From a virus, in IMG/VR virus record IMGVR_UViG_3300011258_000860, positions 1-27,067 of that record: a DNA stretch of 27,067 bases. The stretch is one strand, 5' to 3'. Position 1 is the stretch's first letter. The number at the start of each line of letters is the position of its first letter. Of this stretch, positions 1,100 to 17,109 are shown piece after piece. The position numbers and the translations under genes were made by a program. Below the pieces are notes generated by a model. The model saw only the letters and a program-made list of their open reading frames with translations. It was not told the DNA's origin and did no database searches.

Positions 1100-1774
1100 T
1101 TACATAGATGGTGTGTCTTCATTGCCAATAAGCCTCTTGATATGATCTTTGCCTTTAAACCCTGTCCAATGAATAATTTTTTTCTTTGAAGAGTCTTGCC
1201 CGTCAAGTAACTGGATACGGAGCCAATTATAAATGTTTGGCAAGTCTTCAATGTATACTCTTTTCTTTAGAGGATCATCCCGTAGCATTGCATGTAGAAC
1301 TTCTTGATCGCCTACAGCAGGCGATACATTAATCTGGTCTCTCCATTCTTTGAGAATTCTCGGTGTACCCTCAAAAAGAACTACACCTGAATTGTGCCAT
1401 GTCTCACCCCTTCGCTTTGTCCAAGGCAAGTCTTCTGTCATACTTAATTTGTTTTCAACAGAGTATTCGAAAATATTACCAATAGGTCTGAGAATTTCAC
1501 AGTCAGTGTCAATCCAACAAATCTTGTTAGCCAACTTAGATGCTCTAATCATAGCTTCTGGTTTTAGAAACCAATTTTTAGTTTCGTGAGGTTGCATGTC
1601 TATAACATAATCAAAATGTGTATCTATATTTTCTCTCAATACTTTGCTTACTCCAAAGTTCGCAAAGATGACTGGAATATTTTTACTATTATGTTTTTTG
1701 TAATTCTTGAACCACCAATCTAACATCCATTCAGTGTTAGAATCACAGCCCGTCAGAAAAGCCTTATCGAACAT
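1100..1774 (-). CDS. GT-A glycosyltransferase, GT8-like
   Basis: A protein of 224 aa. Features of a nucleotide-sugar GT-A enzyme are visible. A metal-binding DxD is at D89-T-D91 within the hydrophobic strand KICWIDTDCEI. HNSGVVLFEG follows at about residue 127, resembling the acceptor-side 'NSG' of GT8 enzymes. GDQEVLHA comes near 155 and IIHWTGFKGKDH near the C-terminus, where GT8 proteins carry their second metal-binding His. The predicted role is transfer of a hexose from UDP-sugar to a glycan in the cytoplasm; donor and acceptor cannot be told from sequence. The start overlaps the preceding GT25-like gene by 11 bp, so translation is probably coupled. It is one of at least five transferases in this island. 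Confidence 0.75.
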   Translation of the reverse strand: MFDKAFLTGCDSNTEWMLDWWFKNYKKHNSKNIPVIFANFGVSKVLRENIDTHFDYVIDMQPHETKNWFLKPEAMIRASKLANKICWIDTDCEILRPIGNIFEYSVENKLSMTEDLPWTKRRGETWHNSGVVLFEGTPRILKEWRDQINVSPAVGDQEVLHAMLRDDPLKKRVYIEDLPNIYNWLRIQLLDGQDSSKKKIIHWTGFKGKDHIKRLIGNEDTPSM

Positions 1775-2414
1775 TTACAATATCCATTTTACCTGTTTTA
1801 AGATAAGAGTGTTTTGCTTGAATGCCGTCTTCTCTTTGAATAGTTGTAAAGGTATCTCTAGCTTGAACAGGCCAAGGGTAATATTCAGTAAGTTCAAATG
1901 TATCTCTATGAAGAAAAATATCTGTTGGCTTTGCTAATCTTTTTGCCCGTAAAAGAAGTTGTTTAGCTCCCACTGGAGTAATGTAGTATCCATGAGCCCC
2001 AGGAAAGAAAGGTTTAGATACAAGTGGACCTTCGCCTAATTTGTTTGGTGTGGTAAACTCTCCGTATGATGGTTGACCTAAGTTTACAATATCTCCTCTC
2101 AAGAAAGATGGAATGTCGTTAACGATAACAGCATCATGTTCAAGAATCAAGTAGTCTTGTTGACTTCGAAATGATTCTAACCAAAGTGAGTAATGAGAAG
2201 AGAATGCTGATAGTGCATTCTTATACCTTGACCATTTCTCTTTGAAAAATCTAAAATCAATTTGTTCATCATCTAGAAATTGATCCACAGTCTTAGGAGT
2301 TACTGCATTAAAGTGTTCAATGCGCACTCCGTATGCAGCACCAGATTGAATACAGCGCTTTGCTATCTTCACTGATTCTGGCATGTTCATAAGTGTAATT
2401 ACTTTAGCAATCAT
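1764..2414 (-). CDS. GT25-family LPS-type glycosyltransferase
   Basis: A protein of 216 aa starting MIAKVITLMNMPES, the usual beta-strand start of glycosyltransferase family 25 (LPS core / LOS galactosyltransferases). The signature strand YLILEHDAVI has E92-H-D94 in place of the family's ExD metal motif. It is preceded by the SHYSLW helix (residues 73-78), which fits the GT25 'A-x-x-SH-x-x-x-W' pattern. FPGAHGYYITPVGAKQLL near residues 137-154 matches the family's 'GTxGYIIsxxgAkkLL'. It probably adds a sugar, classically galactose, to a surface glycan. It sits 3 bp after the next GT25-like gene, and the two are likely diverged paralogs. Confidence 0.8.
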   Translation of the reverse strand: MIAKVITLMNMPESVKIAKRCIQSGAAYGVRIEHFNAVTPKTVDQFLDDEQIDFRFFKEKWSRYKNALSAFSSHYSLWLESFRSQQDYLILEHDAVIVNDIPSFLRGDIVNLGQPSYGEFTTPNKLGEGPLVSKPFFPGAHGYYITPVGAKQLLLRAKRLAKPTDIFLHRDTFELTEYYPWPVQARDTFTTIQREDGIQAKHSYLKTGKMDIVNVR

Positions 2415-2417
2415 AAT

Positions 2418-3107
2418 TTAGCCTGTAGTTGTGGACTTTCTTTGCGCTACTGTAGTTATATAAGGGTAATATGACTTCAGTTGGCGAGGAAAGAATTGTT
2501 TACAAAGTAGAGCATCATTTGGCCATAGTCCAATTTTTCTCTGTAGTTCAGCAGCTTGTTTAGCAGCAGTAGGCGTAATCACATATGCGCTATTACCAGC
2601 AAGGCCGTCAGGGTTCTTTTCTAATTGTAGATTTACACCATCAATAAAGTTTACACCAAAATCCCATTTGATAATATTTTCATGATACTGATTACCTCGA
2701 CGTGTAGCACCTCTTGGATCATTAATCATTACAATCTCACCGTCTTCAATCTGATTCCATACTTTAGATGGTCTGAACTTTCTGGTGAAAATTGTATCAT
2801 GTTCAAGAATCATGATTGGTTCATTTTTCTCTACACACAAGTCCCACAACTTCAAATGCGATAAGGCACATGCCATAATTTTTCTATGATTTTCAGCACG
2901 ATAGCCAACTAGCTTCATGCCATGCTCCTCTTTTGTCTCTCCTTGCATTGGGTAAGTATACTCCCAATCATACGTCTTGTCAGGAGTTTCTGCTTTAATC
3001 ATTTCAATATGCAAGTCATCACTCATCTGCCTTGCTGTAGCTACAGTAGTCCTAGCGCTTGAGATGCTATATTGGTCATTAAAAAGTGCAATTACATATG
3101 CTTTCAT
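2418..3107 (-). CDS. GT25-family glycosyltransferase, second copy
   Basis: A protein of 229 aa with the same signposts as its neighbour: a MKAYVIALFN start, a SHLKLWDLC helix at residues 83-91, the strand IMILEHDTIF with E102-H-D104, and GNSAYVITPTAAKQAAEL near residue 170. It is only loosely similar outside these motifs, so the pair is an old duplication or two independent acquisitions. It overlaps the upstream gene by the 4-bp ATGA arrangement, implying translational coupling. The expected activity is transfer of a hexose to a lipo-oligosaccharide-type acceptor; this is inferred from the family. The C-terminus (QRKSTTTG) is polar and probably disordered. Confidence 0.8.
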   Translation of the reverse strand: MKAYVIALFNDQYSISSARTTVATARQMSDDLHIEMIKAETPDKTYDWEYTYPMQGETKEEHGMKLVGYRAENHRKIMACALSHLKLWDLCVEKNEPIMILEHDTIFTRKFRPSKVWNQIEDGEIVMINDPRGATRRGNQYHENIIKWDFGVNFIDGVNLQLEKNPDGLAGNSAYVITPTAAKQAAELQRKIGLWPNDALLCKQFFPRQLKSYYPYITTVAQRKSTTTG

Positions 3108-3829
3108 CTCACATACCTTTCTATAGAAGCTCCGCCATAGACAGATATATGATCGTCTTTAGGCTCGCTTAATACTTGATACCAACCATACTCTGCTGGC
3201 AGAAGTTGTTTGTTTTTATACATATCAAAAACTCTATCGCTATCAAATCTACTTCTATGATGAATAATTAAATTATCGTTAAGCCACCATCCCCAGTCAT
3301 TACTCACAGTAGCATCTTGCTTTTCTTTAGGGTAGATTTTAGGTATCTCATACATTTTATGTACATTACTATGTCTACTTCCTCTGATAGCAAATCCAAC
3401 AGATGCTTTATTTTCATATGCATACTCAAGGTATTTCGTGAAGTCCACATTGCTTGATGTAAAAGTGTCCCATCTAGCTCTGACTATTAAATCATATTCT
3501 TCAGTTACTTGATGCGTTAGCTGGTGTGCATGTCCTACTATTTGCTTTGCAGCGTGCGCCAATTTAGCGTGCATACTTTTACCTGCTCGAAAATTTCTTT
3601 TGTACCCCGCATATTTTGGATGAGATGATTCACTTTCACATTCTGTCCAAGGATTATAATGCATTTCAGGTTCATCAAAGTACGCACACTTTAAATCATC
3701 GCTCTGTTGACTTTTGAGACTTGACCATGTCGAGCAAAATACATTATTCCCAAAATGCTCTTTTGCAGAATCAATATTTCTCTCGATATTACCTCTAATA
3801 ATACCAGAGAAGCATATAGCAATTTTCAT
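3104..3829 (-). CDS. Phage-type putative glycosyltransferase (MKIAICFSG family)
   Basis: A protein of 241 aa beginning MKIAICFSGIIRGNIERNI. It has an FCSTWSS strand near residue 31 and YDLIVRARWDT at 112-122. This 'ICFSG-x-R ... STW ... YD-x-R-x-R-x-D' arrangement is one I associate with glycosyltransferase-like proteins of environmental phages and giant viruses; I cannot name a characterised member. The RARWD stretch would sit where GT-A enzymes put their metal-binding motif. It overlaps both neighbours by 4 bp (ATGA), so it is translated within the sugar operon. A transferase role rests on that context and the weak motif; call it probable rather than proven. Confidence 0.55.
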   Translation of the reverse strand: MKIAICFSGIIRGNIERNIDSAKEHFGNNVFCSTWSSLKSQQSDDLKCAYFDEPEMHYNPWTECESESSHPKYAGYKRNFRAGKSMHAKLAHAAKQIVGHAHQLTHQVTEEYDLIVRARWDTFTSSNVDFTKYLEYAYENKASVGFAIRGSRHSNVHKMYEIPKIYPKEKQDATVSNDWGWWLNDNLIIHHRSRFDSDRVFDMYKNKQLLPAEYGWYQVLSEPKDDHISVYGGASIERYVR

Positions 3830-4542
3830 AGACTGTCAACCTTACTCCACCACTCAGTCTTCTTCAAAGCCTCTAGTTCTTCTGGTGTTCCCATACCTAA
3901 GAACTTCTCAACTCGATATTCTCTTACATTACCCTCAAGATAATTATATACAGGCGCAAGGTAGAATTCACCGTTTGTACGATCATCAGCATCAAACATT
4001 CTCTGTGCAGCTTCAGCAAACTTTTTCTCGCTTGCAAAATGATAAACACCTACAGTAGCAATATTTGAAATCATTTTCTTTTCTGCCAATTCAGTGATAT
4101 ATCCACTTTCATCTACAGTGACATAACTATGAATTGGTTTATCATGGTCAGGAATAAATGTAAGAATAGTGCCTTCAGTATTATCCTGCTTAAAGAAGTC
4201 AGATTTATTCCATGACATTAACTGGTCACAGTTTGCAACTAAGAACCCATCATCACTCTCTGTGTCAATTGCTTCTAGTACAGTACAAGCAGCGCCTTCA
4301 GTAGTGGCATCTAGTACATGTACAGTAGCACTAGGAGAAGCATCTTTAATTAGCTCATCAATAGCATACTTGTCAATATGTTCACGACGAACAATAACAT
4401 GAATATCTGTTCCATGTCCAATGTTTTCTAACACTCTGACGAACATAGGCTTACCTTGAATGTCAATTAGTGGCTTTGGTAAATCATATCCAGCATCAAT
4501 AAATCTTTGACCGTTGCCAGCCATGGGTAAAATAATTTTCAT
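3826..4542 (-). CDS. Sugar-phosphate nucleotidyltransferase
   Basis: A protein of 238 aa with the full N-terminal signature of the NTP-transferase fold: MKIILPMAGNGQRF (G-x-G-x-R loop, residues 8-13), then LPKPLIDIQGKPM at 21-33 with the catalytic/phosphate-binding Lys in PKPL. FLVANCDQL near residue 96 gives the metal-binding Asp, and TNGEFYLAPVYNYL comes near 188. The protein is short and lacks the C-terminal left-handed beta-helix seen in GlmU or long RmlA forms. It should make an NDP-sugar (or CDP-alditol) from NTP and a sugar phosphate; the sugar is not determinable. Its ATG overlaps the RuBisCO-like gene's stop (TAATG), so the two proteins are probably made in step. This suggests the RuBisCO-like protein acts on a sugar phosphate of the same pathway. 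Confidence 0.85.
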   Translation of the reverse strand: MKIILPMAGNGQRFIDAGYDLPKPLIDIQGKPMFVRVLENIGHGTDIHVIVRREHIDKYAIDELIKDASPSATVHVLDATTEGAACTVLEAIDTESDDGFLVANCDQLMSWNKSDFFKQDNTEGTILTFIPDHDKPIHSYVTVDESGYITELAEKKMISNIATVGVYHFASEKKFAEAAQRMFDADDRTNGEFYLAPVYNYLEGNVREYRVEKFLGMGTPEELEALKKTEWWSKVDSL

Positions 4543-5597
4543 TAATCTAAGCTCTTTCTCATTTCATATACTTTATCGTAAATACTTTCACCGGTGTGCA
4601 GCCAACCACCGATGTTAGCCATCCAATCATCACCAATTCGATCTTTGATTTCTAAAGCAAGCACTGGATTCATTCCACAGCTAAGTGCAGCAACTCTATC
4701 ATTACTAGAACATAATGAGATTGCCTCTAATGTTTCATCTTCAGACTCGCCTTCTGGATAATATCCACCAAGCATACCGACGTGCATTGTGTCAATACCT
4801 GCCATAACACCAAGTTTAACCAGAACAGGCCATGAGATAGAAAATCTATTGTCCGGGTCAGTTAGAATACGAATACCAGAACGCTGATAGTGTGTGATAA
4901 GTCCTGCCTGATTACTTGCTGTATATGCACCTAGACCTGACCAAAAATTGATATGCACACAATCGCCACCAAGACTTCTAACATCTTCCAAGTTTTGAAC
5001 TAATTCATATGGATCAGCATTAACACAGTATGAATAAACAACTTTGCTATTTTTCTTTTCAATAAGAGAACTTACTGCCTGCACTCTTTGAGTCAAAGGT
5101 AAATAATCATTGTTAGCCATAATCTCATCTTCTTTGATGAAATCGCTGCCGCCGTCAATCATTTGCTCTACAATAGAAAGAAGTTGTTGTTCTGTAAGAC
5201 CTGACTTTGGTTTAACAATAGAACCAAACAGTGGGCGGTTCTCTGCACCTACACGTTCTTTAAATGCTTTCATTCCAAGAACAGGAGCATTCATATAAGG
5301 TAAACCTTCAATATCAATGACACGACATCGTTCTACAATTTCAATATCAGATTGCCCACCTTGAATAATACAAAGCAACTGAGAAATGTTTGGCCATGTA
5401 AATGCTTTGAGTGGGTAATCAATCTTTACGATATTACCTTCAATAGACTTTACAATAGCTTGCATTTCTTTGACATTAGCAGAAGTTTCAATTTCTGATC
5501 TAATATTTGGATTACCGATACTTTGGCCGATAGCAATATTATGTGCAGCAGCAGGAATATCCTTGCTGTGTACTTCATATGTCACTGTGTAATACAT
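4542..5597 (-). CDS. RuBisCO-like protein (form IV-type large-subunit homolog)
   Basis: A protein of 351 aa, shorter than the usual 400-480. The N-terminal domain ends in PNISQLLCIIQGG, matching RuBisCO 'GNIPQLLS'. The TIM-barrel holds GSIVKPKSGL (K129 and K131, equivalents of spinach K175/K177) and GGSDFIKEDE (K155, D157, E158, equivalents of K201/D203/E204, the carbamate and Mg site). It also has MHVGMLGG (H272, about H327), LSCGMNP (S306, about S379) and NIGG (G330-G331). The HIHRAMH stretch is replaced by ILTDPDNRF, so H294/R295 are missing. Loop 6 has no lysine at the K334 position (Y279). It is therefore not expected to carboxylate RuBP; an enolase, isomerase or decarboxylase-type reaction on a sugar phosphate is more likely. 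An AGGG 9 bases upstream favours the ATG at 5597; another ATG lies at 5606. Confidence 0.9.
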   Translation of the reverse strand: MYYTVTYEVHSKDIPAAAHNIAIGQSIGNPNIRSEIETSANVKEMQAIVKSIEGNIVKIDYPLKAFTWPNISQLLCIIQGGQSDIEIVERCRVIDIEGLPYMNAPVLGMKAFKERVGAENRPLFGSIVKPKSGLTEQQLLSIVEQMIDGGSDFIKEDEIMANNDYLPLTQRVQAVSSLIEKKNSKVVYSYCVNADPYELVQNLEDVRSLGGDCVHINFWSGLGAYTASNQAGLITHYQRSGIRILTDPDNRFSISWPVLVKLGVMAGIDTMHVGMLGGYYPEGESEDETLEAISLCSSNDRVAALSCGMNPVLALEIKDRIGDDWMANIGGWLHTGESIYDKVYEMRKSLD

Positions 5598-5621
5598 TTT
5601 AGACATCCCTACTATATTACG

Positions 5622-6218
5622 TTAGATGCGAATTGAGAATTGAGTTTGCCCATGCTTCTCTAGCTCAAGATTGTGTAAAGCGACAAATTCTTTTACAGCT
5701 TTAGTTACACCTGGTTTACCATATCTGGTTCCTGGCCATTTGTAATCATCACCTATAATCAATCCGCCTTTCTTTACAATATTTAGAGAATTACTTAAGT
5801 CTGACATTACACCCTCATATGCATGAGAACCATCAAGATAAATCCAGTCAAGATTTTTACCTTTGTAGCTACTAAAAAACTTATCAGAAGTCATTCTTTT
5901 AACAAAGACATTTTTATAATCTAAGAATTTATTCAACACTCTTTGATAAACAGATTCATAATACTGCTGAAAACCTGCTTCAGTTTTAGAGCCTGTAATT
6001 TTTGAATACCTCTCTAGATACTCTTCCCACTCAAATTCAGTTGTGCCCTTATACGCTTCGACGCTCCATGGGTCAACTAAGTATAATTTTTTAACGTCTT
6101 TGCTTGCGAAATTGATAGATGTATTACCTTCCCAAACACCAATTTCAGCACCTATTGTGTTTCTTTTAATTAAGTGTAAAATACTAGGAGAGTCTTTATT
6201 GACTGCGCTTCCCATCAT
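5622..6218 (-). CDS. Class I SAM-dependent methyltransferase (Methyltransf_24-like)
   Basis: A protein of 198 aa. The SAM-binding loop reads TIGAEIGVWEGNTS (residues 21-34, motif I G-x-E-x-G-x-x-x-G), followed by KKLYLVDPW, where the Asp binds the ribose of SAM. LDWIYLDGSHAYEGV then GGLIIGDDY are typical of the Methyltransf_24/TylF group, in which the DGSHxYE and GDD acidic residues bind a metal for O-methylation of sugars or catechols. The start is set by AAGGA 9 bases before the ATG at 6218; a TTG at 6239 extends into the upstream gene and lacks such a site. It probably O-methylates a sugar made or transferred by this island. Confidence 0.8.
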   Translation of the reverse strand: MMGSAVNKDSPSILHLIKRNTIGAEIGVWEGNTSINFASKDVKKLYLVDPWSVEAYKGTTEFEWEEYLERYSKITGSKTEAGFQQYYESVYQRVLNKFLDYKNVFVKRMTSDKFFSSYKGKNLDWIYLDGSHAYEGVMSDLSNSLNIVKKGGLIIGDDYKWPGTRYGKPGVTKAVKEFVALHNLELEKHGQTQFSIRI

Positions 6219-6223
6219 AAGAT

Positions 6224-6910
6224 TTATTCCTTGTTCCAATAGTTCTTTGTAGCGCCTGTATCAAAATCAAACCCCCAAAAATCAATGTCTTTTTTATACC
6301 AATCAGCAACAATTTGAATTGTCTCTGTAGTGTAGATATCTTTGTATGTTCCTTTATTTACACCTGTAACATTTCTAGGGCCTGTCATACTAGGAATATT
6401 AAAGTACTTACACAAGTCTTCATTTAATTTATCAAACCGCATCATGTCACAACGCAGATTGCCTTTCTCATCTGAGACATGATCAAATGCAGGATACCAT
6501 CCACGAATAGCCCTATGCCACATGTATGGCTTATCTGCCCATTCAAATCGTTCTTCTAAAAAATGCTCAAATGAGTCAATTTTATGTTTACCAACAGGTT
6601 CTTTCTTTTCAACTTCAATTACTTTTTTAGCAAAGAAATATCTCGATACTACACGATCCCATGGATTACGAATGACCGCAAAACAATCATGATACAGAGT
6701 ATATTGTTTAGATAAATCTCTCCATCTTGCATGTTCAAAGCCATGATGATCACCATTAGCGTTCATAGTGTTTAAGACTGCTTGAGAGTACTCTTCGCTT
6801 TTATGAACTTTAGGAGTTGCTAGAATAATTTTACCTCTTAGAGCATCACTACGTCGAATAGTTAGTCCAGCATTCTTAGGAATATGAATAAACAGTTTAG
6901 GACTAAACAT
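6224..6910 (-). CDS. Sulfotransferase family 2-like protein
   Basis: A protein of 228 aa. The N-terminus KLFIHIPKNAG (residues 5-15) is the 5'-phosphosulfate loop of carbohydrate sulfotransferases ('IPKTAGTS'). CFAVIRNPWDRVVSRYFFAKK (about 76-96) is the 3'-phosphate-binding motif with the R...S pair. RCDMMRFDKLNEDL near residue 148 corresponds to the family's 'v.r.E.l..d'. The usual Thr/Ser after the loop glycine is Leu here (AGLTI), a possible weakening of PAPS binding. If active it moves sulfate from PAPS to a glycan hydroxyl. A GGAG 10 bases before the ATG supports the start. It lies 1 bp after the preceding glycosyltransferase. Confidence 0.75.
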   Translation of the reverse strand: MFSPKLFIHIPKNAGLTIRRSDALRGKIILATPKVHKSEEYSQAVLNTMNANGDHHGFEHARWRDLSKQYTLYHDCFAVIRNPWDRVVSRYFFAKKVIEVEKKEPVGKHKIDSFEHFLEERFEWADKPYMWHRAIRGWYPAFDHVSDEKGNLRCDMMRFDKLNEDLCKYFNIPSMTGPRNVTGVNKGTYKDIYTTETIQIVADWYKKDIDFWGFDFDTGATKNYWNKE

Positions 6911-6911
6911 A

Positions 6912-7688
6912 TCAAATCTGCTCCATAAGTTGTTTCACATTCTCACCACGATCAGGCAGCTTATCTTTCAGAAAGAAGTGTACAAAATGACACTCTGAAA
7001 TTTTAGGGTTAGCTGTAAACAGTCCATTCCATTTCCAGTGCATGTGTTTAACAGGTACGTTACGGGACTTCATGAAGTAGTTTAATAGAGTCTGATCTGT
7101 TGACCATTTCCATGCACCAACACCATCCACAAACGGCTCAAACTCTACCTTAGCCATCCAATCTTTTGCAGGCATGTTGACATACTCGTAAAAAGATTGA
7201 TTCAGCAGCATAAGTCCCATGTTATAAAACTCATAGCCTAACTTATTTGGTTTAAAGTCTAATCCACGTTTACCATGCAAATTATGATACTGCATGTTTG
7301 AGTAGTTACGAATCTTTGCAGCATACTGCTTGTTGATCGACATCTCACGTTCACAGACTGCGCCAAATGGCTTATCAGTGCCAAAGTCATCAAAGATATT
7401 AGGAGCATCTGGTCTAATGTAAATGTCAGAATCTACGATGGCAATCTGATCATACTCAGGCAGTAGATCAAAAGCATTCTCTTTCTCAAAGATAGGCAAG
7501 TAACCTAAACGAGATGCGCCTTCACTTCGATTAGAGGTAAAAGGATTAGGATTGATGCGCAGTTTAGGCTCAGTCAATACCTGGTGTTCAATATCATGCT
7601 TAGAGCAATACTCAGATACGGATTGAATACAATGCTTGTAGAGTTTTGATGGTTTACCTACTGAAACCTGATATATGAGTCTTTTCAT
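6912..7688 (-). CDS. GT-A glycosyltransferase (GT8-like)
   Basis: A protein of 258 aa. The core strand QIAIVDSDIYIRP holds D86-S-D88, the metal/nucleotide-sugar motif. It is followed by FGAVCEREM, YNMGLMLLNQSF (family 'NsGvmL') and STDQTLLNYFM, and a C-terminal CHFVHFF provides the late His. This order is that of GT8-like or nucleotide-diphospho-sugar transferases. The protein is fuller than the GT8-like gene at 1100-1774 and probably has a different specificity. It overlaps the dehydrogenase stop by 4 bp (ATGA), so it is co-translated with a gene that would supply a UDP-uronic acid or similar donor; that donor link is an inference. Confidence 0.75.
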   Translation of the reverse strand: MKRLIYQVSVGKPSKLYKHCIQSVSEYCSKHDIEHQVLTEPKLRINPNPFTSNRSEGASRLGYLPIFEKENAFDLLPEYDQIAIVDSDIYIRPDAPNIFDDFGTDKPFGAVCEREMSINKQYAAKIRNYSNMQYHNLHGKRGLDFKPNKLGYEFYNMGLMLLNQSFYEYVNMPAKDWMAKVEFEPFVDGVGAWKWSTDQTLLNYFMKSRNVPVKHMHWKWNGLFTANPKISECHFVHFFLKDKLPDRGENVKQLMEQI

Positions 7689-8470
7689 TTTAAACGGTGT
7701 CCAATGTTAATATCTCTTACAGCTTCAATCAAGCGCAGCTTTCCTTCATGACGCTCTGCAAAATTTACAAACTCTGAAGTGTCTTTAGGCAGACAATGCC
7801 CACCCCAACCAAATCTACCATCATAACCAGGCACTTCATTATGAGAATGTCCGATACGCTCATCAAGACCCAGAGCATAGACGGTAGAGTCATAGTCAAG
7901 TTCTGGATGTGCTTTCTGCATCAGGTTATAAAGATCATTAAAGAAAGTTACACGCATAGCAAGAAAAGAGTTTTCTGCATACTTGACATAACCTGCTTCT
8001 ACAATATCAAGAAACGCTTCTTCTGCAATGTCGATACAATCAGCAAACACATTTGCCCAGCCTTCTGCTTGACTAGGTTCACCACCAATAATCATTTTAG
8101 TCTCAGCAAGAAAGTCTTCTACAGAACTACGTCCACGCAGAAACTCTGGAGAGAAACAAACATTAGGATAGTTTTCTTTGAAGAATTGCAGTGTATCAAT
8201 ATCAGTAGTAGACTTGATTAGAATTGGTATGTCTTTACCAATAGCTTCTACAGTTTCAAGTACAAGAGAAGCATCACAATCTCCATTCGCACGTTCTGGT
8301 GTTGGCACACAGACTACAGCAGCATCACATGACTCCATGACTTCGATCAATGGAGTGCTATACTCTTCATAAGCAGGGTCTACAATATCATAATCAACTT
8401 TATCAGATTGATCAAATGCAGCGACCATTGCTTTGCCAACAAAGCCATATCCAACTACACAAACTTTCAT
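7685..8470 (-). CDS. Short UDP-sugar/nucleotide-sugar 6-dehydrogenase
   Basis: A protein of 261 aa. It opens with the NAD Rossmann loop MKVCVVGYGFVGKA and has VVCVPTP (52-58), the SPEFLRG motif (107-113) and AGYVKYAENSFLAMRVTF (159-176) with K163 and N167. The catalytic GGHCLPKD has Cys226 and Asp230. All catalytic residues of the UDP-glucose/UDP-ManNAc dehydrogenase family are therefore present. The C-terminal UDP-binding Rossmann domain of the 390-430-aa enzymes is missing, because the frame ends about 30 residues after the cysteine. The ATG at 8470 is the natural start, 1 bp after the preceding stop. The expected reaction is two-step oxidation of an NDP-hexose C6 to the uronic acid, for use by the neighbouring transferases. 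Confidence 0.85.
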   Translation of the reverse strand: MKVCVVGYGFVGKAMVAAFDQSDKVDYDIVDPAYEEYSTPLIEVMESCDAAVVCVPTPERANGDCDASLVLETVEAIGKDIPILIKSTTDIDTLQFFKENYPNVCFSPEFLRGRSSVEDFLAETKMIIGGEPSQAEGWANVFADCIDIAEEAFLDIVEAGYVKYAENSFLAMRVTFFNDLYNLMQKAHPELDYDSTVYALGLDERIGHSHNEVPGYDGRFGWGGHCLPKDTSEFVNFAERHEGKLRLIEAVRDINIGHRLK

Positions 8471-8471
8471 A

Positions 8472-9329
8472 CTATTCTCCAAAAAAATTCTCATAAAAAT
8501 CTCTGAACACAGAAACTTTCTGTTTTGCTATTTGTACATTCTGATCTATATATCTTTTATCCTTAAACATGTCAACAGGAACTTTTGGTAAAAGATGATC
8601 GTAGTTTAAGTTAGAACTTCTTTTCCAATTAGTTAGCATAGTGGGTGTACCTAAAGAAACACTAACTGATTGGCATAATCCATTATATCCAAATGCAAAT
8701 TCACTAGTGGCTAAATGATAATAAAGTTCTCTAATTGGTGTTCTATACTCAACTTCAACAACATCATACTCTAAAAGTTTCAAGTTTTCTTTGATTTCAT
8801 TCCATTCGGTATAGCTATATAATTCATCTGTCTCTCTACCATCAGTGACCCATATAACATCATTCGATGTTCCCATCATTGTATGTACAAATGTTGTTTT
8901 CCAAAATACAACTTTTTTAGGGACTCTATCTAAATGATTTTTTAGTGGCCAAAGAAGGGAACGCTTGTCTACACCCTTTACTTTTAAAATCTTATTGATG
9001 CTAATACAATCATCATTAAACTGTCTTTTTCTTTTTACATATTCTTTCCGACTATCAATTATTATATGATTAAATTTTACACTTACTTTTGATTTGAACT
9101 CTATCATTGAATGTAAATAATTAAATTTATCTAAGAATGATTCTAGTTCATCACAGTCTTTAAAATAAAAATTTTCATCTACATAAATACTTGACCAAAA
9201 GACATCAACAAATAAGTCTATTTCATTATATCTTGCGAGATAATAACTATAGGAAAGAACCCTAATCGCCTCAAAGTAGCTTGCCTCACCGAGAGATACT
9301 TCAATTTTATTTGAATTTACGAAAATCAT
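8472..9329 (-). CDS. Putative GT-B glycosyltransferase (GT9/heptosyltransferase-like)
   Basis: A protein of 285 aa, AT-rich by eye compared with the dehydrogenase next to it. The clearest landmark is LATSEFAFGYNGLCQSVSVSLGTPTMLT near residues 207-234, which looks like the C-terminal donor-binding part of GT-B enzymes ('l...a.l.ig.nsG..h.A.alG.P.v.l'). An N-terminal start of small alternating strands and helices fits a Rossmann half. I cannot identify catalytic residues. The first ATG (9329) overlaps the radical-SAM stop by 23 bp. Transfer of a sugar within the island is the best guess. The nucleotide composition suggests it was acquired separately from its neighbours. Confidence 0.55.
   Translation of the reverse strand: MIFVNSNKIEVSLGEASYFEAIRVLSYSYYLARYNEIDLFVDVFWSSIYVDENFYFKDCDELESFLDKFNYLHSMIEFKSKVSVKFNHIIIDSRKEYVKRKRQFNDDCISINKILKVKGVDKRSLLWPLKNHLDRVPKKVVFWKTTFVHTMMGTSNDVIWVTDGRETDELYSYTEWNEIKENLKLLEYDVVEVEYRTPIRELYYHLATSEFAFGYNGLCQSVSVSLGTPTMLTNWKRSSNLNYDHLLPKVPVDMFKDKRYIDQNVQIAKQKVSVFRDFYENFFGE
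8547..8575 (-). promoter_or_regulatory. Possible internal sigma70-type promoter
   Basis: On the minus strand TTGACA (8575-8570) is followed by exactly 17 bases and TATATA (8552-8547). This is the same pair and spacing as the intergenic element at 14107-14135. It lies inside the codons of the preceding transferase, about 80 bp before the dehydrogenase ATG, so it could give extra transcription of the sugar genes. Being within coding sequence, it may be chance. Confidence 0.35.
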
Positions 9330-10263
9330 TTAAATCAAAGTCCGTTCCATGCATTTTATACAAGTCTCTTTCATGGTTTGTATAGACAAGTACTTCTGGA
9401 TCATCAATTAAAAAATCGCAACCTTTACAAAAATCAGGATAATTTCCTGTAGTATGCTGCTTTCTCAATAGCTCATATGCATGTCCATTCCAGATTTCTT
9501 CTGCTGTATTATCTGATATATGCCCAAGAATAGCATCATCATCTCTACCGAGAACCTGACAACAAGGATGTACAGCGCCCCATTTACCTTCTGCACCCCC
9601 TGCTCGAATAACTAAGTCTGGTGAAAATGGTCTACCACAAGTCTTGACCTTACCCTCTCGACCATATTCAGGCTCATATACACCTGACCAATTATGCATC
9701 TTCCATATTTCAGTCTTTACACCAGCAGTTTCAACGATCTTGCGGTACTGCTCTACTTCATAGTCAATATTATCATTATCCATGACAAGATGATATGTAG
9801 ACACAACACAGTCTGAATCTGAGTCTTCTACATATCTCTGCATAGCTTCAAGGTTATTAATGACTTTTGTAAACTCTTTTGAGTTCATCCATGCCCAGTA
9901 TGTATCTGCATTATATCCAATGATAGAGAAGCGAAAGAAGTCTGCGCCAGCATCTACAACTCGCTTCATATAATCACCGTGCATACGATTGCCATTAGAA
10001 TACATGAAAGCTTTTGCTCCATGCTTTTTTACAACTCTTACATATTCGTCAAGATTAGAGTTCAGCGTAGGTTCACCACTACCTTCAAGATTAACAACCC
10101 GCAGACCATGATTAACTAACTGATCTACTGTCTCTTCAAAACGATTGAGAGACATCTTCTTCAGCCAGTTTTTACCTCTGCCCTCTGGTCTAGATTGTGG
10201 ACACATCTGACATGAATAATTACAGCCGCCATTAATCTCAATAACAGCACGATCAATATTCAT
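9307..10263 (-). CDS. Radical SAM/SPASM-domain enzyme
   Basis: A protein of 318 aa. The N-terminal GGCNYSCQMCP gives the CxxxCxxC of the radical SAM [4Fe-4S] cluster (C14, C18, C21). LEGSGEPTLN follows near residue 59, corresponding to the 'GGEP' SAM-binding strand. A C-terminal cysteine-rich region (KTCGRPF near 216, HPCCQV near 236, FCKGCDF near 284) plus the GHISDNTAEEIWNG stretch is the SPASM/twitch layout with auxiliary Fe-S clusters. Related enzymes act on peptides (RiPP maturation), sugars (epimerase or dehydratase chemistry) or cofactors. Here it is embedded between a nuclease and sugar genes, with TAATG coupling to the exonuclease. A sugar-tailoring role is the inference; no precursor peptide was seen next to it. 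Confidence 0.85.
   Translation of the reverse strand: MNIDRAVIEINGGCNYSCQMCPQSRPEGRGKNWLKKMSLNRFEETVDQLVNHGLRVVNLEGSGEPTLNSNLDEYVRVVKKHGAKAFMYSNGNRMHGDYMKRVVDAGADFFRFSIIGYNADTYWAWMNSKEFTKVINNLEAMQRYVEDSDSDCVVSTYHLVMDNDNIDYEVEQYRKIVETAGVKTEIWKMHNWSGVYEPEYGREGKVKTCGRPFSPDLVIRAGGAEGKWGAVHPCCQVLGRDDDAILGHISDNTAEEIWNGHAYELLRKQHTTGNYPDFCKGCDFLIDDPEVLVYTNHERDLYKMHGTDFDLNDFRKFK

Positions 10264-15596: not shown

Positions 15597-15675
<79 letters not shown>

Positions 15676-17008: not shown

Positions 17009-17109
<101 letters not shown>

Follow-up and report, generated by a model that had tools for sequence, protein, structure and literature searches.

Enzymes with the RuBisCO fold are known as carboxylases and, in the guise of RuBisCO-like proteins (RLPs), from methionine salvage and acid-sugar breakdown. 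The RLP of R. rubrum is a sugar-phosphate isomerase of the MTA-isoprenoid shunt. Among the sequences closer to the present case, viral rbcL or RbcL-like genes from landfill and Great Salt Lake viromes were listed as carbon-fixation auxiliary genes, and the available portions of these reports contain neither an active-site analysis of the viral members nor a nucleotidyltransferase context (PMC12607003, PMC8506154). In the available part of its text, the 2007 GOS ocean survey describes RuBisCO groups left unplaced and reports that certain active-site residues are poorly conserved (PMC1821046). Some of the published viral RbcL-like sequences or unplaced GOS sequences may belong to the RLP clade described below. 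Within the partial literature covered, on RLPs together with phages, glycans or nucleotidyltransferases, no description was found of the clade's viral occurrence and its nucleotidyltransferase cassette. The author of a preliminary description of the locus knew of no RLP described as a standard phage gene or in a glycan operon. The viral genes cited above qualify this statement, although they were reported as carbon-fixation genes and outside such a context.

The window, by which we mean the whole 27,067-base IMG/VR virus sequence analysed here, comes from a marine phage and encodes PhoH, a B12-dependent ribonucleotide reductase, an exonuclease and other phage families. Within it the RLP and a sugar-phosphate nucleotidyltransferase (NTase) sit among glycosyltransferases, a sulfotransferase, a methyltransferase and an NDP-sugar dehydrogenase, as follows.

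1764..2414, minus strand: glycosyltransferase family 25 (PF01755, 1.3e-9)
2418..3107, minus strand: glycosyltransferase family 25 (PF01755, 1.7e-12)
3104..3829, minus strand: conserved downstream protein, cluster c6, probably glycosyltransferase-like; located after the NTase in the majority of T4-like relatives; no Pfam match
3826..4542, minus strand: sugar-phosphate nucleotidyltransferase (PF00483, 1.9e-9, 37.9 bits against a cut-off of 21.2)
4542..5606, probable start 5597, minus strand: RuBisCO-like protein (PF00016 and PF02788 over cut-off; AlphaFold RuBisCO fold; dN/dS about 0.1)
5622..6239, minus strand: TylF/Methyltransf_24-type methyltransferase, just upstream of the RLP (PF13578, 4.9e-14)
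6224..6910, minus strand: sulfotransferase (PF03567, 3.1e-5)
6912..7688, minus strand: GT8-like glycosyltransferase (PF01501, 0.0011, under the cut-off)
7685..8494, minus strand: short member of the UDP-glucose/GDP-mannose dehydrogenase family (PF00984, 1.5e-19; PF03721, 4.9e-13)
9307..10263, minus strand: radical SAM/SPASM protein on the margin of the glycan block (PF04055, 1.6e-15; PF13186, 1.7e-8)

The stop codon of the RLP overlaps the start codon of the NTase (TAATG), a junction that the preliminary description had reported correctly. The nearest solved structures to the NTase are 4evw, followed by 5xhw/6jq8 ('6-deoxy-D-mannoheptose pathway protein'). The dehydrogenase at 7685-8494 has only 269 residues, its usual C-terminal domain being unmatched. 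The methyltransferase cluster represented at 5622..6239 occupies the position immediately before the RLP (−1) in 14 of 93 non-redundant RLP loci, and the GT8-like cluster (6912..7688) is kept near the RLP in 27 of them. The window also encodes tRNA-Thr(TGT) at 15597-15672 and tRNA-Arg(TCT) at 17021-17095, the latter 91% identical over 58 bases to a tRNA gene in Salmonella phages SPN1S and SPN9TCW.

The longest open reading frame of the RLP gene, on the minus strand, spans 4542-5606 (354 amino acids, ATG at 5606). The true start is probably the second ATG at 5597 (351 amino acids), the position chosen in the preliminary description, because relatives begin at residue 4 and an AGGG motif lies about 10 nucleotides upstream of this codon. 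That account had called the product a homologue of the RuBisCO large subunit, all of whose quoted motifs are present in the protein, and the domain search it proposed placed both PF00016 RuBisCO_large (E=1.8e-24, 87 bits; cut-off 30.1) and PF02788 RuBisCO_large_N (E=2.9e-5, 24.7 bits; cut-off 20.7) over threshold. A phmmer search of PDB sequences returned 99 matches at E<=0.01, headed by Rubisco 8vgs (3.8e-23) and with the RuBisCO-like 3nwr in third place (3.2e-21). An AlphaFold model built with 35 family sequences (mean pLDDT 92.6, pTM 0.89) was compared with the PDB by Foldseek and had 1058 matches at E<=0.001; 3nwr (3.6e-27) and the Pyrococcus Rubisco 2d69 ranked first, with query TM scores of 0.83-0.88. 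These data show that the protein is a member of the RuBisCO superfamily. Against viral relatives its dN/dS is about 0.10-0.12 in pairs with an estimable dS (one pair was saturated), and the gene is under purifying selection. Host contamination or a chance open reading frame is ruled out by this ratio and by the presence of the clade in at least 284 viral contigs.

These relatives, whose contigs measure between a few kb and more than 500 kb, were confirmed after viral contigs had been screened with the RLP family alignment. Screening of 84,980 species genomes of prokaryotes yielded 24 loci, about 22 of which are clear members of the clade; carriers include SAR11, three Legionella, Azospirillum oleiclasticum, Elusimicrobia, Verrucomicrobiia, DPANN archaea and others, and some of these cellular members are possibly phage contigs binned with the genomes. 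A contig of a Sphingobacteriales metagenome-assembled genome (JAAXIF010000028.1, L082) carries a phage-like cassette with a 75% identical RLP and may be a misbinned phage. Among 399 sampled Pseudomonadota, a close member was found in the seed genome only (352 bits; next best 152). Neither tblastn of GenBank phages with three different family members nor a search of a viral structure library, in which no full RuBisCO fold was seen and the best query TM among the top matches was 0.45, revealed at the sensitivity reached a cultured phage with an RLP of this kind.

All 41 clade members analysed grouped together (support 0.80) in a wider tree that sampled form I and a diverse set of form IV proteins along with partial form II/III, form III and 3nwr sequences, forms II/III and III being represented by two partial PDB entries. 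In a second tree, which likewise included form I and varied form IV sequences, a single branch separated 37 members from 26 other sequences (SH-aLRT 100). Most cellular members branch outside the viral ones. On the evidence of these sequences the clade is distinct and mostly viral, apart from the forms I-III and RLP types sampled, which agrees with the earlier placement of the protein outside the named RLP types.

The clade was also compared with individual families. By HMM and by fold the nearest proteins are the form III and II/III RuBisCOs (2d69 and 8vgs) together with 3nwr, and K177 is common to these RuBisCOs and the clade; in contrast to them, the clade lacks the loop-6 lysine, E60, N123 and H294, has a short C-terminal tail and occupies other branches. 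A true RuBisCO is rejected by the form III model (107 bits against a cut-off of 497), by residues and by tree position. The DK-MTP-1-P enolase MtnW is likewise rejected (TIGR03332, 53 bits against 514), and no methionine-salvage genes occur among the recurrent neighbour clusters examined at RLP loci. OiaX, the 3-oxo-isoapionate-4-phosphate decarboxylase, is the best-scoring characterized RLP family besides the RuBisCOs and acts on a sugar phosphate, although its score (NF042437, 98.9 bits) is far from the cut-off of 700 and an annotated OiaX (L222) sits with other proteobacterial RLPs outside the clade, so that this assignment too is rejected. This form IV protein shares K175, K201, D203 and E204 with the clade, whereas K334, H294 and R295, which it keeps in its catabolic apiose context, are all changed or variable there. 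The R. rubrum-type RLP (L223), whose substrate is a phosphopentulose, provides the best precedent for an isomerase reaction and has the fold, K175, the carbamate lysine and the D203 equivalent in common with the clade. It lies elsewhere in the wider tree, its placement in the second tree being unsure owing to a long branch, and it has His at E204 and retains H294, where the clade has Glu and Gln, respectively. It also adjoins mtnK/mtnA on an Agrobacterium plasmid, methionine-salvage neighbours that are absent from the clade.

The active site was compared in 41 clade members using spinach RuBisCO numbering. K175, K177, K201, D203 and E204 are kept in every one, and for the present protein the preliminary description had already listed the carbamate and magnesium residues and K129 (the K175 site) as retained; in the RLP of the window the carbamate lysine and the Mg ligands are K158, D160 and E161. 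S379, G381 and G403 are conserved in the 40 members that have those sites, and G404 in 38. By contrast, Gly replaces both E60 and N123, Asn replaces T65 and Gln replaces H294 in 41/41 members, and in all 40 that reach the site the loop-6 K334 is Tyr and G380 is Cys. Gln at position 294 occurs in none of the other RLPs compared, whether isomerase-type or decarboxylase, and K177 is kept in the clade while being absent from those RLPs. H294 and the loop-6 lysine are thus replaced in the window's protein (Q241 and Y282), as had been claimed, whereas R295, which had also been listed as lost, is present as R242; most other members have Lys or Ser at this position. Across the clade the apparatus for the metal and the carbamate appears to persist, as do the glycines belonging to one phosphate site. 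From the established RuBisCO mechanism, the lysine that stabilizes CO2 would be gone and the second phosphate site altered.

Because H294, K334, E60 and N123 are all replaced throughout the clade, CO2 fixation by these proteins is very unlikely. The usual reading of a 'viral rbcL', a working RuBisCO serving phage carbon fixation, can appeal to the intact fold and carbamate site and to the listing of such genes under carbon fixation in the available parts of the virome reports (PMC8506154, PMC12607003), yet it would have to accommodate the position of the clade outside the sampled forms I-III, the score far below the form III cut-off and neighbours that are glycan-related throughout, and we regard it as extremely improbable. 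The loss of the carboxylase residues supports the earlier view of a RuBisCO-like protein that is not a carboxylase. The absence of several active-site residues, and a length (354 amino acids) below that of most RuBisCOs, might instead indicate a catalytically dead protein that serves the NTase in a structural or regulatory capacity. This is highly improbable in view of the invariance of the carbamate lysine, both Mg ligands, K175, K177 and the phosphate-binding glycines over 31-94% identity, with many of the clade's invariant residues falling at active-site positions.

The coupling of the RLP to a nucleotidyltransferase, which the preliminary description had drawn from this one locus, holds clade-wide. 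In the 93 non-redundant loci an NTase of a single cluster is nearby in 83, a 108-amino-acid cupin in 42 and a 150-amino-acid protein resembling glycerophosphodiester phosphodiesterases (GDPD) in 41. Where at least three genes flank the RLP on each side (75 loci), the NTase lies within three genes of it in 67, always with a copy on the same strand (other genes of the same loci, 26%). RLP and NTase distances are correlated across 50 dereplicated loci (r=0.74), a value that 0 of 2000 permutations matched. In the NTase tree RLP presence changes 6 times compared with a shuffled mean of 25.7, the sets with and without RLP having been seeded differently. The arrangement extends to cellular loci: Azospirillum has GDPD-RLP-NTase on its chromosome, Elusimicrobia RLP-cupin-NTase, and Legionella, Verrucomicrobiia and a nanoarchaeon the RLP-NTase pair, while SAR11 has GDPD-NTase-RLP-NTase with an aminotransferase, an epimerase and a glycosyltransferase nearby (by eye). 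Directly upstream of the SAR11 genes, also by eye, is a ThyX-like protein (L092:3525-4472). In the three Legionella a divergently oriented LicD gene (PF04991, 1e-42; for example L100:8639-9487 and L102:8919-9755) stands beside the pair; it was found nowhere else among the RLP loci searched, and it may point to a CDP-linked product.

Genes are shuffled in phage glycan islands, and the cupin and GDPD can in part occur separately from the RLP, which is present in only 10 of 80 GDPD-seeded loci. The RLP could therefore be tied to the NTase only through a mobile glycan module and serve a different branch, such as the supply of an unrelated side-chain building block. We consider this improbable, as the same-strand NTase neighbourhood in 67/75 loci, the correlated divergence, the pairing in bacterial chromosomes and an archaeon, and the sorting of NTase lineages by RLP presence all argue against it.

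The composition of the cassette gives a further indication of function. Neither its cupin nor its GDPD family was seen in the 27 kb window; in a 94% identical relative (L001) a GDPD gene adjoins the RLP. The mini-GDPD-like protein, present in over 590 viral contigs (for example L050:11183-11620) and often beside NTases in phage glycan islands, has invariant HRG, E-x-D and GH motifs and no significant Pfam match; its AlphaFold model (pLDDT 96) weakly matches the fold of GDPD 2o55 (TM 0.57, E 0.017). Cupin-seeded loci contain the RLP in 63 of 80 cases, most of the others having a PMM-like HAD protein or NTase-HAD fusions. RpiB is a pentose-phosphate isomerase, and one locus (L305, 4519-5676) encodes an NTase fused to an RpiB domain. 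The cultured cyanophages Bellamy and SynMITS9220M01 resemble the RLP cassette in having the NTase, the 108-amino-acid cupin, the mini-GDPD and glycan genes in one gene block, and differ from it in carrying the RpiB domain (PF02502, 4e-32), fused to the NTase, where the RLP would be. As predicted beforehand, in 30 viral loci with such fusions the cupin is directly downstream in 28, the GDPD is present in 26 and the RLP in none; the other two contigs end where the cupin would follow. Conversely, the RLP loci searched contain no RpiB domain. The two cassettes otherwise match, an RpiB domain fused to the NTase taking the place of the RLP. The fusions (L390:172-1326, which is Bellamy gp206, L391:3775-4929, L305:4519-5676 and L392-L421) are annotated merely as 'phosphatase' in the two cyanophages. 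Since identity between the RpiB-fused NTases and those linked to RLPs is only about 31%, the two cassettes may handle different sugars.

The NTases that bear an N- or C-terminal HAD phosphatase fusion and have no RLP include L355:4634-5998, L355:6321-7403 and L387:3299-4681. A strict alternation of RLP and PMM-like HAD was rejected, as six loci (L039-L044) carry both. In raw counts, biased by locus seeding, 7 of 76 NTases at RLP loci were long (mostly HAD-fused) compared with 59 of 88 elsewhere; owing to this bias, and to a p value of only 0.05 in the dereplicated cupin set, the anti-correlation is not relied upon.

Taken together, we propose, with a probability of about 0.5, that this distinct, mostly viral clade functions in the synthesis of a nucleotide sugar (or nucleotide polyol) as a sugar-phosphate isomerase-type enzyme that feeds the NTase, and not in carbon fixation. 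The carbamylated K158 with Mg2+ held by D160 and E161 would deprotonate a small phosphosugar at the carbon adjacent to its carbonyl, giving an enediolate that K132/K134 would reprotonate. The net reaction would be a phosphosugar isomerization (aldose/ketose or a 1,3-shift) on a substrate probably of pentose size. This product, or a compound derived directly from it, would then be activated by the NTase, and the glycosyltransferases encoded downstream would place the activated sugar on virions or host surface glycans, with the cupin and mini-GDPD contributing later or parallel steps. Isomerization is preferred on two grounds: RpiB belongs to the isomerases, and so does one RLP type, which acts on a sugar phosphate. 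Against this, HAD phosphatase fusions and PMM-like HAD proteins also occupy the slot, and some loci hold both an RLP and a PMM-like HAD, so the slot is not strictly that of an isomerase. Furthermore, the invariant H294-to-Gln change, seen in neither isomerase-type nor decarboxylase RLPs, means that the reaction may be of another kind. The suggestion in the preliminary description that a new reaction provides the sugar phosphate for nucleotide activation is plausible and gains support from the RpiB swap.

Enediolate chemistry on the NTase precursor might alternatively be that of a decarboxylase or an enolase/tautomerase resembling OiaX or MtnW, yielding, for example, a ketose phosphate from the phosphate of a 3-oxo sugar acid. 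RLP types whose plasmid neighbours imply 3-oxo-acid phosphates are among the nearest characterized (OiaX at 99 bits; L222 and L224), and OiaX has the K175, K201, D203 and E204 of the clade. This reading is unlikely, albeit the most substantial of the alternatives, given the scores far under both family cut-offs, the OiaX residues H294, R295 and K334 that the clade has changed or varies, the lack of a conserved acid-sugar dehydrogenase or kinase beside the RLP, and its exchange with an isomerase.

If the isomerase-type reading is correct, the clade, large and viral, would add a biosynthetic role to the RuBisCO fold, and it offers a well-defined protein pair to test. In its fullest form, for which we would put the odds slightly short of even, the proposal is of a biosynthetic sugar-phosphate isomerase for glycan nucleotide sugars, mainly phage-borne and exchanged for RpiB within a modular NTase-cupin-X-GDPD cassette, which is found on bacterial and archaeal chromosomes as well. 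This phage sugar cassette is apparently undescribed, and two of its conserved partners, the cupin and the mini-GDPD, are uncharacterized. The assignment of any member of the clade to 'viral rbcL carbon fixation' would then be a misannotation, and RuBisCO homologues in viromes should be checked for K334, H294 and their neighbours before they are counted towards carbon fixation.
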